Of a DNA stretch of 39,326 nucleotides, positions 3,221-32,853 are shown one piece after another. Origin of the DNA: a bacterium (lineage in GTDB: Bacteria; Chloroflexota; Chloroflexia; Chloroflexales; Kallotenuaceae); the NCBI GenBank assembly GCA_016781505.1, contig JADDQF010000066.1:1-39326 (forward strand). The letters are read 5' to 3'. Within the stretch, counting starts at the first letter, position 1; every line of letters starts with the position of its first letter. The notes below the pieces were generated by a model. That model saw only the letters and a list, made by a program, of their open reading frames with translations. It was not told where the DNA came from and ran no database searches. The position numbers were made by a program, and so were the translations under genes.

Positions 3221-4363
3221 TTACTTCACCTTCTCTTCAGCGACCTGCCGATATACGCCCAATGCTTTCTCTGCCAGCTGCCGCCAATGAAACATCGCTG
3301 CCCGAGCTAATCCCCGTTCGCGTAGCTCATCGCGTAACGCGTGATCGCTGACGATACGCTGCAAAGCATCTGCGAGCCCATCGACATCATCGGGATCAAC
3401 CAGGAGTGCTGCATCACCAGCGACTTCGGGCAAACTCGTGGCCGTACTCGTGATCACAGGAGTACCGCACGCCATTGCTTCTAGCGGCGGCATACCAAAG
3501 CCTTCGTAACGCGCGGGAAAGACGAAGGCAAGCGCGGCAGCGTACCACAGCGGCTGCTCATCCGGAGGAACAAAGCCGATAAACTGGACATCACGCTCAA
3601 GGTTCAGCGAGCGATAGAGCGTAAATATTTCATCATAGTGCCAACCCTTATCGCCGGCGATCACGAGTGGCAACCGCACCTCGTCCCGCACGTGCGCATA
3701 CGCTTTGAGCAGCACCGGCACATTCTTGCGCGGCTCTAATGTGCCCAGATACAACAGATAGCGATCGGGTAGTCCTTTGCTCCGCCTGAAGGACTCAAGC
3801 TCCTTCACAGGTCGTGGATGAAATCGTCGGGCGGGAGCATTATAGGCTACGGTAATCCGCTCATCCGGCACGCCGTATCGAGCCCTGATCGCTTGCTTCG
3901 TGAACTCGCTGACGGTCATGATGTGCGAAGCGCGCCGCACGCTCAGGTGGGTAGCCCACTTCAAGTACTGCCGATTCACCGTGCGATGGCTTTGCTGCAC
4001 GTCCAGAAACGCAAGATCGTGAATCGTGATCACGGTCGGCACGGGCGCGAGGAACGGCGCCGTATTCAGCGGTCCATGGAAGAGCGTGTATCGACCGCGT
4101 GCCAGGAGCAACGGTGCTACCGTTTGTTCCCAGGGGATGCGGTACTTCGGGAGAAGCGTCGGCAGCCGACTTTGCGCGATTTCAAAATGCGCCGGTAGCC
4201 CAAGCTGTTCGCGGGTGACGCCAGGATTCACAAAGACAGTGTACTGATTTTCAGTGTCGATGTGGGCTAACTCGCGCAGCAGCTCGACGGTATGATTGCT
4301 TACGCCACCTTGGCGGAATGACGTGGCAAACGAGATGATGTGGCCGTTAATGGCAATGCGCAT
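3221..4363 (-). CDS. Glycosyltransferase family 4 (GT-B fold)
   Basis: This protein of 380 residues transfers a sugar from a nucleotide sugar to a growing glycan at the cytoplasmic membrane face. The N-terminal half begins MRIAINGHII and has the glycine loop RQGGVSNHT. The second half has the hallmark GTLEPRKN segment, VIAGDKGW, and the EX7E-type motif EGFGMPPLE that contacts the donor nucleotide. ATG 4363 is preferred to the longer frame from 4447, because the extra 28 residues overlap the upstream gene and do not resemble the family. It lies 14 bases after the glycosylphosphotransferase stop, so the two are likely co-transcribed, the first committing a sugar to the lipid carrier and this one extending it. 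Acceptor and donor cannot be read from sequence. Confidence 0.9.
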   Translation of the reverse strand: MRIAINGHIISFATSFRQGGVSNHTVELLRELAHIDTENQYTVFVNPGVTREQLGLPAHFEIAQSRLPTLLPKYRIPWEQTVAPLLLARGRYTLFHGPLNTAPFLAPVPTVITIHDLAFLDVQQSHRTVNRQYLKWATHLSVRRASHIMTVSEFTKQAIRARYGVPDERITVAYNAPARRFHPRPVKELESFRRSKGLPDRYLLYLGTLEPRKNVPVLLKAYAHVRDEVRLPLVIAGDKGWHYDEIFTLYRSLNLERDVQFIGFVPPDEQPLWYAAALAFVFPARYEGFGMPPLEAMACGTPVITSTATSLPEVAGDAALLVDPDDVDGLADALQRIVSDHALRDELRERGLARAAMFHWRQLAEKALGVYRQVAEEKVK

Positions 4364-4377
4364 CGTGGTGGATAAGC

Positions 4378-5607
4378 CTAATAGCTGCGTAGCCGTAGCC
4401 AGCGCCGGGCCGTACGCCCATGATATTCTTTCCCCCACCGCAGCCACAGCACGATCAACATGGCAAGCAGCAGGATCTTGATGTCCAAGACCAGACTCAT
4501 GTGGCGTAGGTACACCCGATCGAAGCGCAGCCGTTGGCGGGGAGTGATGTAGTACCCTCCGATTACCTGTGAAAGACCGGCCAGGCCGGGCCGGACTGCA
4601 TGACGCTCGGCAAAATGCGGGGTGTCATGCAAAATATTGTAGATTACGACGGTGCGCAATGGCCGAGGGCCGACAAAGCTCATCTCACCTCGCACGATGT
4701 TGATGAGTTGTGGCAACTCATCCAACGCAGTCTTGCGTAGGAATCGCCCAATGACCAAGGTGCGCGGGTCACGTTCAGACGACGGAATGGGGCCAGTCTC
4801 CTCTTCAGCATTGCGAATCATACTCCGGAACTTGATCTGGTGAAAATTGATGCCACCTCTGCCAACTGAATTCTTGATAAAGAAGATCGGGCCAGGATCT
4901 TCAAACCACACCAAAAACATGCTTACGAGCCAGAGCGGGGCCGACAGCAGGAGGCCGATGAAGGCGAGTGCGAGATCGAAGAGGCGCTTTCCGTGCGGCT
5001 CAGCTGGCAACTGACGAAGCACTCTTTGGTGATGCAGGCGGACCTCTCCCTCGATCCGCGGCGACGGAGGATACGTATCTTCCCATAAGCCGTCATGGAA
5101 TGCCGTTGCGAGCAGTCCACCGGCAAACGAACCGAGTACTGCGCTTCCGAGAGACGAGAACGTCGGGGTGAGTGGAAGAACGAGCAGTTGATAGATCCAA
5201 ACCGCAATGGTCACACCTGCACTGAAGAGAAAGGCGAGACGATATGACCAGGGACGTGACCACCAGGGAAACGTGTAGCTGAGAAGTCGCTGCATGGCAA
5301 AGGTCAACAGTATATGCGGGAGGACCAGGACAGCGAGAATCCAGAGCTGGGGACTCCTGGCTGGTGAGGGTGTCCTGAGTGCCGATATCCGGCTGTCCAA
5401 TTGCAAGAGTAGCAGGACTGCAAACACTACTGCTGCAACACAGATGATCCAGATGCTGCCTCTGCGGCTCCACGTCGCTGTCGGCTTCGTGCGATCACTG
5501 GAGCTTAGTAGAGCGGCCGTCGCCGGAGCGACCATTCCCTGCTCAGCCGGGTCACCGGCGTGTTCCTGTCCTCGCTTCAGCACTGTCGGCGGCTCTAATC
5601 CCATCAA
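4378..5607 (-). CDS. Polyprenyl glycosylphosphotransferase (WcaJ/WbaP-type initiating sugar transferase)
   Basis: This 409-residue membrane protein moves a sugar-1-phosphate onto undecaprenyl phosphate, the first step in making a surface polysaccharide repeat unit. Hydrophobic segments lie near residues 52-70, 87-107 and 120-147. The bacterial sugar transferase domain starts at KRLFDLALAFIGLLLS (207-222), whose helix is the re-entrant membrane anchor. The catalytic core shows QIKFRSM (257-263), DELPQLINIVRGEMSFVGPRP (296-316; the family core) and VRPGLAGLSQV. The N-terminal part is shorter than in WcaJ and lacks a clear CoA-binding-like fold. The start is not certain; several Met residues lie within the first 25 positions. 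It is in the middle of a five-gene minus-strand polysaccharide cluster. Confidence 0.92.
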   Translation of the reverse strand: MMGLEPPTVLKRGQEHAGDPAEQGMVAPATAALLSSSDRTKPTATWSRRGSIWIICVAAVVFAVLLLLQLDSRISALRTPSPARSPQLWILAVLVLPHILLTFAMQRLLSYTFPWWSRPWSYRLAFLFSAGVTIAVWIYQLLVLPLTPTFSSLGSAVLGSFAGGLLATAFHDGLWEDTYPPSPRIEGEVRLHHQRVLRQLPAEPHGKRLFDLALAFIGLLLSAPLWLVSMFLVWFEDPGPIFFIKNSVGRGGINFHQIKFRSMIRNAEEETGPIPSSERDPRTLVIGRFLRKTALDELPQLINIVRGEMSFVGPRPLRTVVIYNILHDTPHFAERHAVRPGLAGLSQVIGGYYITPRQRLRFDRVYLRHMSLVLDIKILLLAMLIVLWLRWGKEYHGRTARRWLRLRSY

Positions 5608-11407: not shown

Positions 11408-11504
11408 TGGCGAGAGCGCGTGGGAGTCGAACCCACCGGCGAAGCTCGTCACCCCGCCCAACCGTTTTGAAGACGGCGACCAGCACCGGCCAACACCCGC
11501 TCTC
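11408..11504 (-). tRNA. selC: tRNA-Sec (anticodon UCA), CCA encoded
   Basis: The minus-strand RNA is 94 nt plus an encoded CCA (11410-11408). Features of bacterial tRNA-Sec are all visible. The anticodon loop CUUCAAA (anticodon UCA) is identical to that of E. coli selC. There is a 6-bp D stem closing a 4-nt CGGU loop, a long variable arm of about 8 bp, a T arm GTGGG-TTCGACT-CCCAC, and discriminator G73. The acceptor pairs GAGAGCG with CGCUCUC, and the eighth pair next to the T stem is a G-G mismatch where 8 pairs are expected. The D stem is rich in G-U pairs. This indicates that the organism inserts selenocysteine at UGA, although no selenoprotein gene is recognised in the window. Confidence 0.9.
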
Positions 11505-26489: not shown

Positions 26490-27536
26490 GTGCCAAAACC
26501 TACGTTAGCGACCGGCATCGTCGGTTACGGCGCGTACGTCCCACGCTTCCGTATCACCGCTGCCGAAATTTCACGCATATGGAACGGCGGCTCTCTGCTG
26601 CCGATAACAGAAAAATCGGTTCCAGGCATCGACGAGGACACGATCACGATGGCCATCGAGGCAGGTCGTCATGCCCTGGCTCGTGCTGCCGTTCCCGCTA
26701 CCGAGCTTGGCGCTGTTTGGATCGGCTCTGAGTCGCATCCGTACGCGGTTAAGCCGTCCGGCACAATCGTGGCCGAAGCGCTTGGCTGTGGGCTCGAGAT
26801 CAGCGCTGCGGACTGGGAGTTCGCGTGCAAGGCCGGGACTGAAGCGCTCACTGCCTCGATGGGCATGGTCGGTTCGGGGATGCTGGCATACGCCATGGCG
26901 ATCGGCGCCGACACGGCACAGGGGCGTCCCGGCGATGCCCTGGAGTACACCGCGGCCGCGGGTGCCGCTGCCCTGATTGTCGGGCCGGCTGACCAGGCCC
27001 TGGCGACGCTGGATGCCACGCTCTCGGTCGTCACCGATACGCCGGATTTCTTCCGGCGGGCTGAGCAAACCTATCCGGTGCATGGCAACCGCTTCACCGG
27101 TACGCCGGCCTACTTCGCGCATATCACAAACGCCGGACGGCGGCTGCTGGCACAGCTGGGCGCGGAGCCGGGCGACTTTCGCTATGTGGTCTTTCACCAG
27201 CCGAATGCAAAGTTTCCGCAAACGGTCGGCAAGCAGCTCGGCTTCGGTCCGGAACAGATCGCGCCGGGGCTGTTGGCGCCGCGGATCGGCAATACCTACT
27301 CAGCGGCCGCACTGCTGGGCCTATGCGCGACGCTGGATGTAGCGGAGCCGGGCGACCGGATCATGGTTGTTTCATATGGCTCGGGCGCGGGCGCCGATGC
27401 ATATGCCCTAACTGTGACGGATCGGCTGCCGGCTGCCCGTGAGCGCGCGCCACTGACAACCGCCTATCTCGAACGACGTGTCGAGGTCGACTACGCGACA
27501 TATGCAAAGTGGCGCGGCAAGCTCGTGCAAGGCTAA
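26490..27536 (+). CDS. mvaS: Hydroxymethylglutaryl-CoA synthase, archaeal type
   Basis: 348 residues of the thiolase-fold HMG-CoA synthase group found in archaea and some Chloroflexota. It condenses acetyl-CoA with acetoacetyl-CoA for the mevalonate pathway. The catalytic set is intact: Glu81 (WIGSESHPYAVK), Cys113 (WEFACKAGTEAL) and His236 (VVFHQPNAKFP). The start is GTG 26490 with GGAG upstream. It is followed by a thiolase homologue and a DUF35 protein in the same order as in archaeal operons, where the three proteins form one complex that passes acetoacetyl-CoA between sites. Here the two partners have lost key residues (see the next two genes). Confidence 0.93.
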   Translation: MPKPTLATGIVGYGAYVPRFRITAAEISRIWNGGSLLPITEKSVPGIDEDTITMAIEAGRHALARAAVPATELGAVWIGSESHPYAVKPSGTIVAEALGCGLEISAADWEFACKAGTEALTASMGMVGSGMLAYAMAIGADTAQGRPGDALEYTAAAGAAALIVGPADQALATLDATLSVVTDTPDFFRRAEQTYPVHGNRFTGTPAYFAHITNAGRRLLAQLGAEPGDFRYVVFHQPNAKFPQTVGKQLGFGPEQIAPGLLAPRIGNTYSAAALLGLCATLDVAEPGDRIMVVSYGSGAGADAYALTVTDRLPAARERAPLTTAYLERRVEVDYATYAKWRGKLVQG

Positions 27537-27614: not shown

Positions 27615-28769
27615 ATGCGAAATGTGTATATTGCCGGTATTGGCCAAACGCCTGTCGGCGAACATTGGGATAGCTCGTTGACCACCTTAGCTGTGCGTGC
27701 CCTGTCTGCCGCGCGCCGCGAGGCCGAACTGCCGATCCAGGCGTTGTATGTTGGCAACGCCCTTGGCGGTGAAGTTGCGGGCCAAGCGTTGCTCGGCACA
27801 ACGGTGGCGACTGCGGCTGGTCTGGGCGGAATTGAGGCCATGCGCGTGGAGGCTGGCGGCGCATCTGGCGGCGCAGCGCTCCGGCAAGCGTATCTCGCAG
27901 TTGCCGGGGGCGCGTTTGATGTTGTGGCAGTTGTCGGCGTGGAAAAGCTGACGGATGTGCTGGAGGGCTCGATCGAGGCGGCGCTGGCGCTGGCGCTTGA
28001 CAGCGATTATGAGGCGGCGCAGGGACTCACGCTCACCGCAGGCTGGGCTTTGCTCCAGCAGCGGTACATGCATGTGTATGGCTATGCCGACACTGCGTTC
28101 GCGCCCTTTCCGGTGAATGCCCATCGCAACGGCTCGACCAATCGAGCGGCGCAGTATCGCTCGGCCATCTCACGCGAGCAGGTGATTCGGTCGCCCAAAG
28201 TTGCCGCGCCGATCGCGCTGCTGGATAGCTCAACGGCGGCTGATGGCGCTGCGGCCGTGATCATTGCCGCGGAGCAGGTGGTGCGCAAGCTGAGCGGTCC
28301 GCGCATCAGGGTGGCAGGCTCTGCGTTGGCGTCGGCTCCGCTTGCACTCGGCGCGCGCCGGGATCTGCTGTGGCTGGAGGCGGCCGAACAATCCGCGCAG
28401 GGGGCGCTTAAGCAAGCAGGTGTTCGCCATGCCGATGTCGACGTGCTGGAACTATCGGATCAGCATGGCATCGTGGCGGCGCTGTCGCTGGAGGCGGGTG
28501 GCTTTGTGGAGCGTGGCATGGCGCCTCAGGCGGCCGCGGATAACCTGATTGCCCGTGAAGGCACGCTGCCGATCGCGACCTTCGGTGGCTGTAAAGCGCG
28601 CGGTGATGCGCCCGGCGCCTTGGGCGTGTACCAGATCGTGGAGCTAACTCAGCAGCTGCGCGGTACGAGTGGCGCGAATCAGGTTGCGGATGCACGTGTG
28701 GCGTTTGCGCAGTGTTTGGGCGGCCTCGGAGCGACGGCGGCAACGCACGTGCTTGTGCGGGAGGATTAA
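27615..28769 (+). CDS. Thiolase-superfamily protein (archaeal acetoacetyl-CoA thiolase/SCP2-like) without the catalytic residues
   Basis: 384 residues from ATG 27615 (MRNVYIAGIGQTPVG), behind AAGGA; the longer frame from 27576 adds 13 atypical residues. Overall it follows archaeal acetyl-CoA acetyltransferases, including DSSTAADGAAAVI and the YQIVELTQQLRG end. The nucleophile region, usually VExACASG, reads VEAGGASGG, with Gly82 in place of Cys. The HDAF-type region reads ELSDQHG (280-285), and the GHP His is replaced (KARGDAPGALG, Asp331). Claisen chemistry by the normal route is therefore unlikely. It could be a scaffold subunit, or an aldolase-like enzyme: thiolase-fold steroid aldolases (Ltp2 type) also work without the Cys and with a DUF35 partner. 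It lies between mvaS and a DUF35 gene and is translationally coupled to the latter. Confidence 0.85.
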   Translation: MRNVYIAGIGQTPVGEHWDSSLTTLAVRALSAARREAELPIQALYVGNALGGEVAGQALLGTTVATAAGLGGIEAMRVEAGGASGGAALRQAYLAVAGGAFDVVAVVGVEKLTDVLEGSIEAALALALDSDYEAAQGLTLTAGWALLQQRYMHVYGYADTAFAPFPVNAHRNGSTNRAAQYRSAISREQVIRSPKVAAPIALLDSSTAADGAAAVIIAAEQVVRKLSGPRIRVAGSALASAPLALGARRDLLWLEAAEQSAQGALKQAGVRHADVDVLELSDQHGIVAALSLEAGGFVERGMAPQAAADNLIAREGTLPIATFGGCKARGDAPGALGVYQIVELTQQLRGTSGANQVADARVAFAQCLGGLGATAATHVLVRED

Positions 28770-28772
28770 AGA

Positions 28773-29153
28773 ATGCAGCTAGCAAAACATTGGCGTCTCA
28801 AGGGCAGCCGCTATCGCTTGGAAGGGGCGCGCCATCCCCATACCGGCGCAATTTGCTTCCCGCGTCCGGCCGATGCGGCCGAGTGGGAGGCCGTTCCGTT
28901 GTCGGGCCAAGGCGTGGTCGAGTCGTTTGCCGCCGCGGGCAAAGCTGCTGATGGCTTCGCCGACGACGCGGTAATGGCGCTGGTTCGTTTGGCGGAAGGG
29001 CCGATCATTACAGCCCAGCTGACGGACGTGGCGCTGGATGAGGTTAAGATCGACATGCCGGTCGAGATGGTCACGCGCAAGCTCCGTGACCTCGGCCCCG
29101 AAGGTTTGATTGTGTACGGGTACAAATTCCGGCCGCTGCTGGTGGAGCGCTAG
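28773..29153 (+). CDS. DUF35 OB-fold protein lacking the zinc-ribbon cysteines
   Basis: 126 residues. In archaea DUF35 proteins bridge thiolase and HMG-CoA synthase and share their CoA site. The OB-fold part is recognisable (GQGVVESFAAAG, GPIITAQLTDV, IDMPVEMVTRKL, YGYKFRPLL). The N-terminal helix and YRLEGAR are followed, where CxxC...CPxC is expected, by HPHTGAICFPRPADAAEWE. Only one Cys (28) remains, so zinc binding is probably lost. The start lies 3 bases after the thiolase stop, with GGGAGGA inside the thiolase end, so the two are made together. It is probably the structural partner of the unusual thiolase homologue. Confidence 0.88.
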   Translation: MQLAKHWRLKGSRYRLEGARHPHTGAICFPRPADAAEWEAVPLSGQGVVESFAAAGKAADGFADDAVMALVRLAEGPIITAQLTDVALDEVKIDMPVEMVTRKLRDLGPEGLIVYGYKFRPLLVER

Positions 29154-31608: not shown

Positions 31609-31689
31609 TACGAAAAACTACCGTAGAACGTGTGTGCCATACACGCTTTGCCGTCCGTTCCCGCTGCACCGCTAGCAAGAACGAACCAG

Positions 31690-32853
31690 ATGGATCTTGA
31701 ACACAAGCTTGAGCTACTGGCTGACGATGCGCGCTTTGAGGCGTGTGATAGTTTCACGCCTCGGAAACGGAAAGGTAAGCGAGGATCGCCCGGCATTCAG
31801 CATACCCGGGGCCCGAACGGCAAGCCGATGGCGCTTCTTCGGCTGCTGCAAAGCAATAGCTGTGAGTGGGATTGTCCGTATTGTCCGCTGCGCCGCTCCA
31901 ACGACATCGCACGGGCTACCCTCACCCCCGAAGAGCTGGCGACGACGTTTATGCAGCGGCATGAAGCCGGCGATGTGCAAGGCTTGTTCCTTTCTTCGGC
32001 CGTGGATGGCGGCGTGCGTCCGGCCATGGCGCGTATGTTGGACACGGTGGAATTGCTGCGGGTGCGCTTTGCGTACACCGGGTATGTGCATCTTAAGCTG
32101 ATGCCGGGCGCGCGGCCGGATGAAGTGGAGCGGGCCGCGACCCTTGCGGATCGCGTGTCGATTAATCTGGAAGCGCCCAACGGCGCGCGGATGAAGCGCA
32201 TCTCGCCCGAACGGCGCTGGAGCACCATCCTGGAGCCGATGGCCTACGCCCGCGAGCAGCAGGAAGCGGGGAACTTGCCGTCCGGTCAGGCTACGCAGCT
32301 GGTGGTAGGCGCGTCTGGCGAGAGCGATCGCGAAATATTTGCGGCGACCTCGCGAATGTACAGCGAGTTCAAGCTGCGCCGGGTGTATTTCAATGCGTTT
32401 CGGTCACAGCCCAACACGCCCATGGCCGAGCACGAGTCCACGCCATGGGTGCGCCAGCAGCGCTTGCAGGAGGCCGACTGGCTGGTGCGGCATTACGGGT
32501 TTGATGCCAGCGAGCTGCCCTTCGAGGCCGACGATAATTTGCCGCTGCAGCTCGATCCTAAATTCGCCTGGGCGCTCCAACACCCGGAACAGTTTCCGAT
32601 CGATGTCCAGACCGCTGATCGCGAAGCGTTGCTGCGCGTGCCCGGCATCGGCCCGATCAGCGTCGAGCGCATCCTCGCCCTGCGCAGCGCCGTCCGTTTC
32701 CGTGAGCTGCAGCATCTGCGCAAGCTGGGCGTCGTCGTCACCAAGGCGCGTCATTTTGTGACTTTGGATGGACGGTTTTTCGGCGGTGATGCCGCCCAAG
32801 TGGTTGCGCGCCTGCGCGCACAGCCGATTGTGGAACAGCTGACGCTTTGGTAA
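31690..32853 (+). CDS. Putative DNA modification/repair radical SAM protein with HhH domain (rSAM_link_UDG type)
   Basis: 387 residues. The radical SAM cluster motif is C58-x3-C62-x2-C65 (SCEWDCPYCPLRRSND). Conserved family segments include LFLSSAVDGG, LKLMPGARPDEVERA, RVSINLEAPN and YFNAFRSQPNTPMA. The C-terminal part has a helix-hairpin-helix, LLRVPGIGPISVERILALR, near residue 310, implying DNA or RNA binding. Related proteins are usually encoded beside a uracil-DNA glycosylase-like protein; none is adjacent here. ATG 31690 (MDLEHKLELLADDARFEACDS) is preferred to the frame from 31630, whose first 20 residues are atypical. Confidence 0.88.
   Translation: MDLEHKLELLADDARFEACDSFTPRKRKGKRGSPGIQHTRGPNGKPMALLRLLQSNSCEWDCPYCPLRRSNDIARATLTPEELATTFMQRHEAGDVQGLFLSSAVDGGVRPAMARMLDTVELLRVRFAYTGYVHLKLMPGARPDEVERAATLADRVSINLEAPNGARMKRISPERRWSTILEPMAYAREQQEAGNLPSGQATQLVVGASGESDREIFAATSRMYSEFKLRRVYFNAFRSQPNTPMAEHESTPWVRQQRLQEADWLVRHYGFDASELPFEADDNLPLQLDPKFAWALQHPEQFPIDVQTADREALLRVPGIGPISVERILALRSAVRFRELQHLRKLGVVVTKARHFVTLDGRFFGGDAAQVVARLRAQPIVEQLTLW

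Follow-up and report, generated by a model that had tools for sequence, protein, structure and literature searches.

The gene at 27615-28769 (forward strand) of the window, by which we mean the whole 39,326-nucleotide stretch of DNA analysed here, encodes a thiolase-fold protein in which the nucleophilic Cys and both catalytic His have been replaced. Judged from sequence, it is probably a pseudoenzyme, kept to build a complex with the HMG-CoA synthase and the DUF35 protein encoded on either side of it and to form a shared CoA site, while acetoacetyl-CoA is made elsewhere. The physical complex, its structural need for this protein and the absence of any thiolase activity are all inferred. Literature searches, which covered open-licence papers only, found no published report of this Cys-less form.

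A thiolase fold without the catalytic residues

The 384-residue product of 27615-28769 was assigned from profiles, PDB matches and an AF2 model. It aligns with thiolases end to end, with PF00108 and PF22691 both above cut-off, and its closest solved relatives in the PDB are 7YVY (282.9 bits, E 4e-83), a Pyrococcus furiosus enzyme, and then the thiolase in 6ESQ (190.7 bits), the archaeal thiolase/HMG-CoA synthase/DUF35 complex. This similarity to thiolases is far above chance level. It scores below the curated NCBIfam cut-offs (364.9 of 420 bits for NF004720 and 295.8 of 600 for NF053570). The AF2 model (pLDDT 80.9, pTM 0.87) overlays with 7YVY and 6ESQ at a TM of 0.85-0.92 and thus has the thiolase fold, although its low confidence at residues 324-331, around the GHP motif, makes it uninformative on pocket geometry.

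Alignment to 7YVY, 6ESQ and further relatives places Gly82 (27858-27860) at the position of the nucleophilic Cys, Ser281 (28455-28457) at that of the HDAF His and Asp331 (28605-28607) at that of the GHP His, all codons being on the forward strand. The nucleophile motif IEAACASGG of 7YVY reads VEAGGASGG in the window protein, EVHDAF reads ELSDQHG and KARGHPVGATG reads KARGDAPGALG, so that there is no Cys in xEAACASG and no His in HDxF or GHP. The same alignment of relatives reveals a new His, His284 (28464-28466, forward strand), at the Phe position of HDAF. The first-pass annotation, made from the DNA alone, had given this reading frame, these coordinates and these three motif changes, and all are borne out by the comparison with 7YVY and 6ESQ. 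We also sought a relocated nucleophile in a 25-sequence alignment and found no invariant Cys, so a Cys moved to another place is rejected. The classical second-Cys position is occupied by a Cys in the window protein (residue 367, AQCLGG) and by C, S, T, N or A in relatives. A thiolase that lacks the Cys and both His can neither form nor resolve an acyl-enzyme.

The neighbouring HMG-CoA synthase and DUF35 genes

Upstream, at 26490-27536 (forward strand), lies a 348-residue archaeal-type HMG-CoA synthase (NF003274, 526.8 bits; TIGR00748, 485 bits), whose best PDB match is chain I of 6ESQ (398 bits). Alignment of homologues identifies its catalytic residues as Glu81 (26730-26732), Cys113 (26826-26828) and His236 (27195-27197), again on the forward strand. 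All three are kept, in agreement with the first-pass annotation of an intact synthase, and there are no departures from them in 163 aligned neighbouring homologues, a few of which are incomplete in this region. Downstream, only 3 bases past the stop codon of the thiolase homologue, begins the 126-residue DUF35 OB-fold protein (28773-29153, forward strand), whose nearest PDB match, both by sequence (124.6 bits) and, from its model, by fold, is the DUF35 chain in 6ESQ. The three adjacent window genes are thus each homologous to chains of 6ESQ. The DUF35 neighbour is present as annotated, but it is not a standard one: PF01796 matches only the C-terminal part, Pfam detecting the OB domain alone, and the four zinc-ribbon cysteines of the archaeal complex are missing both here and in all aligned members of the order.

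Elsewhere in the window, ARAGORN places a tRNA-SeC at 11408-11504 on the reverse strand, which suggests selenoprotein synthesis in this genome, and a 407-residue radical SAM protein with helix-hairpin-helix matches is encoded at 31630-32853 on the forward strand.

Distribution and selection within the order

A homologue search of 158 genomes of the same class was positive in 86, and in 71 genomes, all of one order, it is of the Cys-less type that accompanies HMG-CoA synthase. This order, presumably the Chloroflexales, takes in Herpetosiphon giganteus, Roseiflexus, Chloroflexus and Ca. Chloroploca. HMG-CoA synthase and DUF35 adjoin the Cys-less gene in almost all members, a few contigs ending early, and the motifs EA[AG]GASGG, [ST]D[PQ]HxI and KARGD are newly fixed. 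Across 19 close pairs, dN/dS has a median of 0.059 both for the thiolase homologue and for DUF35, and of 0.030 for HMG-CoA synthase; the value for the thiolase homologue amounts to strong purifying selection and is indicative of a needed protein. Random decay or an assembly error is ruled out by the presence of the same residues order-wide and a dN/dS of about 0.06, in agreement with the initial judgement that this was not simple decay.

In one Chloroflexus-type genome (L056) an extra gene at 3888-4598 separates the thiolase homologue from DUF35, and its hydrophobic sequence suggests a membrane protein. Some genomes of the order also carry a second thiolase-like family with Thr in place of the Cys (EAATATG) and no adjoining HMG-CoA synthase (L078, 229-1374; L079, 2902-4044; L080, 439-1581; L092, 2941-3885), in which both His are retained wherever the sequence is complete.

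Variation at the catalytic positions

The three catalytic columns show no variation in 24 Cys-bearing sequences. In the Cys-less Chloroflexota the variability of the same columns ranks at the 50th-71st percentile, about that of an average column, which is what lost catalysis predicts. Of the 20 sequences that represent the order, all have His284, and Gly82 and Asp331 are each shared by 19, so the pocket here is not merely drifting, and neither His284 nor Asp331 was seen in the aligned intact thiolases. These two newly fixed residues could be structural, ligand-binding or catalytic.

It is conceivable, if rather unlikely, that the pocket has been rebuilt in this order as an Asp282-His284-Asp331 site for a non-thiolase chemistry or for acyl-CoA hand-over to HMG-CoA synthase, in which case the archaeal-type mevalonate pathway would have a different first step in these bacteria. 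That a CoA ester undergoes some new reaction in the pocket, for which Asp282-His284 and Asp331 would serve as acid/base, comparable in principle to the Cys-less aldolases Ltp2 and Sal, we consider unlikely. The fixation of His284 and Asp331 would fit such a role, and Ltp2 and Sal show that the thiolase fold can be repurposed (PMC12329534). However, sister Chloroflexota have F/Y/S/T and N/F/D/E/H at these two positions in the same operon and with the same HMG-CoA synthase, and the window's operon holds no additional pathway gene. Moreover, Ltp2 catalysis depends on the Tyr of a YDHF motif, which is YDCY in Sal (PMC12329534), and this Tyr, which we looked for because an Ltp2 precedent had been raised in the first-pass annotation, is missing: the window has SDQH and the order S/T-D-P/Q-H. 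An Ltp2-type aldolase identity is not supported, and of the two branches offered at the outset, a scaffold or a different, Ltp2-like chemistry, the second finds no positive support.

Distinctly unlikely, in our estimation, is a CoA-ester sensor, in which the dead pocket would bind acetoacetyl-CoA, acetyl-CoA or CoA and thereby tune the HMG-CoA synthase joined to it, with no catalysis of its own. The conservation of the fold and of many positions surrounding the pocket, but not of the catalytic residues, would suit a sensor, yet sequence cannot separate this from a structural role.

Cys loss beyond the order

The survey of Chloroflexota proposed at first annotation found the substitutions order-wide and a missing Cys also in other members of the phylum, and we extended it by a scan of named genomes combined with motif reading. 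Cys-less homologues adjoin HMG-CoA synthase in Anaerolineae and Promineifilum, where the Cys is replaced by D, E, G or S, and in another Chloroflexia family (L077; E). Among archaea the same arrangement occurs in Heimdallarchaeota (N/E), a group of Thermoproteota (G/N), two others (D/G) and a Woesearchaeon (D). Relatives that keep the Cys and both His include those of Peribacteria, other Thermoproteota, P. furiosus and M. thermolithotrophicus. With the motif columns left out of the tree, parsimony requires about five changes of Cys state, three of them forced by well-supported branches. One ancient loss inherited everywhere is rejected, since a single Cys-less clade fails the AU test and parsimony gives about five changes, a rejection to be read with caution as the long branches L143, L077 and the Heimdallarchaeota are placed unsurely. 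The Cys thus appears to have been lost recurrently, several separate times in bacteria and archaea.

The DUF35 zinc ribbon is retained in most of the Anaerolineae and archaeal Cys-less cases and was not seen in the Anaerolineae L117 and L126. A missing zinc site is rejected as a general sign of a dead thiolase, given the Peribacteria (L138-L140), in which an intact thiolase lies beside HMG-CoA synthase and the best DUF35-like match appears to be without the ribbon.

Separate thiolases and acetoacetyl-CoA supply

The first-pass annotation had suggested looking for a second, intact acetyl-CoA acetyltransferase, and this genome encodes three separate canonical thiolases, each with the Cys, NEAF, GHP and CxG. 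By our reading of the neighbouring sequences, rather than by profile search, the first (contig C136) stands alone, the second (C51) adjoins acetoacetyl-CoA-reductase-like and PhaC-like genes of PHA type, and the third (C45) adjoins beta-oxidation genes. At least one TIGR01930 match is present in 70 of the 71 genomes of the order, the sole exception being G071 (92% complete), in which no canonical thiolase was found. Among other Cys-less Chloroflexota, 16 of 17 genomes have a canonical thiolase, and the seventeenth (G168) carries an intact paralogue of archaeal type, L173, which branches as the sister of the Cys-less clade.

Exactly one separate canonical thiolase is found in each of the 16 Cys-less Thermoproteota. 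Genomes with a Cys-bearing partner mostly have none: such an enzyme was found in three of eight Cys-bearing Thermoproteota and in none of the three Peribacteria, whose partner thiolase is intact. Two of the three Cys-bearing Thermoproteota that do have one (G210 and G211) are members of the group sister to the Cys-less clade, as would be expected if a second thiolase had been gained before the Cys was lost. The association of Cys loss with a second thiolase is suggestive; corrected for relatedness, it comprises only three independent pairs, with which significance is unreachable, and in this test some rows were scored as having a canonical thiolase ahead of confirmation, L066 being scored 1 although its genome, G071, shows none.

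Four archaea with the Cys-less form, three of them Heimdallarchaeota, have draft genomes in which no other PF00108 thiolase was found. The three Heimdallarchaeota loci (L133, L135 and L136, from G175, G177 and G178) have Asn in place of the Cys and an adjoining HMG-CoA synthase. These genomes would favour a protein that still makes acetoacetyl-CoA, either without a Cys nucleophile or by using the Cys of HMG-CoA synthase through the shared CoA site. We regard this as very improbable, because both His are lost too, because the Cys-less Chloroflexota and Thermoproteota own other thiolases, and because thiolases require an acyl-Cys intermediate and two oxyanion holes.

The genome also encodes HMG-CoA reductase and, as a phosphomevalonate decarboxylase and an isopentenyl phosphate kinase have been characterised from Roseiflexus castenholzii (PMC3857490), the mevalonate route of Chloroflexi is real.

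A proposed role in the complex

In the solved archaeal complex, as summarised with reference to the structure paper of 2018, DUF35 links the thiolase to HMG-CoA synthase and the two enzymes share a CoA site (PMC12329534). We propose, in favour of a pseudoenzyme kept for the complex, that an active HMG-CoA synthase would need the thiolase homologue and DUF35 for its assembly, and that the homologue would be kept for the CoA site shared at their interface. A separate canonical thiolase would supply acetoacetyl-CoA, entering from solution, and the dead thiolase could not cleave it next to the synthase. The route to this state may have started from a genome in which a second thiolase was already there, so that loss of the Cys would be harmless; both His positions would have drifted afterwards, and the zinc site of DUF35 would also have disappeared in this order. 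The scaffold branch of the original annotation is supported by conserved synteny, purifying selection, the intact synthase site, drift of the catalytic columns in relatives and the separate intact thiolases. Against it stand the invariant His284 and nearly invariant Gly82 and Asp331 of the order, the four archaea in which no other PF00108 thiolase was found, G071, and the shortage of independent pairs behind the association with a second thiolase.

Channelling of acetoacetyl-CoA from thiolase to HMG-CoA synthase is well known from the archaeal complex. Repeated death of the thiolase with retention of the protein suggests that the lasting value lies in structure, that is, in assembly and the shared CoA site, rather than in channelling, and the Cys-less lineages are natural knock-outs with which the two could be told apart. 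Throughout this bacterial order, and in several groups of archaea, an acetyl-CoA acetyltransferase annotation of these genes is probably wrong. This bears on models of isoprenoid supply, HMG-CoA being an early isoprenoid building block.

Comparison with known systems

The window shares with the archaeal thiolase/HMG-CoA synthase/DUF35 complex three adjacent homologous genes, the active-site residues of the synthase and the folds of the thiolase and DUF35 subunits, but differs in the replaced Cys and His of the thiolase and in the absence of the DUF35 zinc cysteines. The closest solved relative by both sequence and fold, the Pyrococcus furiosus thiolase PFC_04095 (7YVY, about 43% identical), retains the Cys, HDAF and GHP. 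The steroid aldolases Ltp2-ChsH2(DUF35) and Sal-Shy(DUF35) (6OK1 and 9MYR) likewise combine a thiolase fold devoid of thiolase chemistry with a DUF35 partner, although they are only about 21-24% identical to the window protein, which lacks their YDHF or YDCY. The Friedel-Crafts acylase PhlABC (5M3K) also unites subunits resembling HMG-CoA synthase and thiolase with DUF35 in a single complex, but it serves another pathway, and its reaction is catalysed by the thiolase-like PhlC, which bears an active-site Cys.
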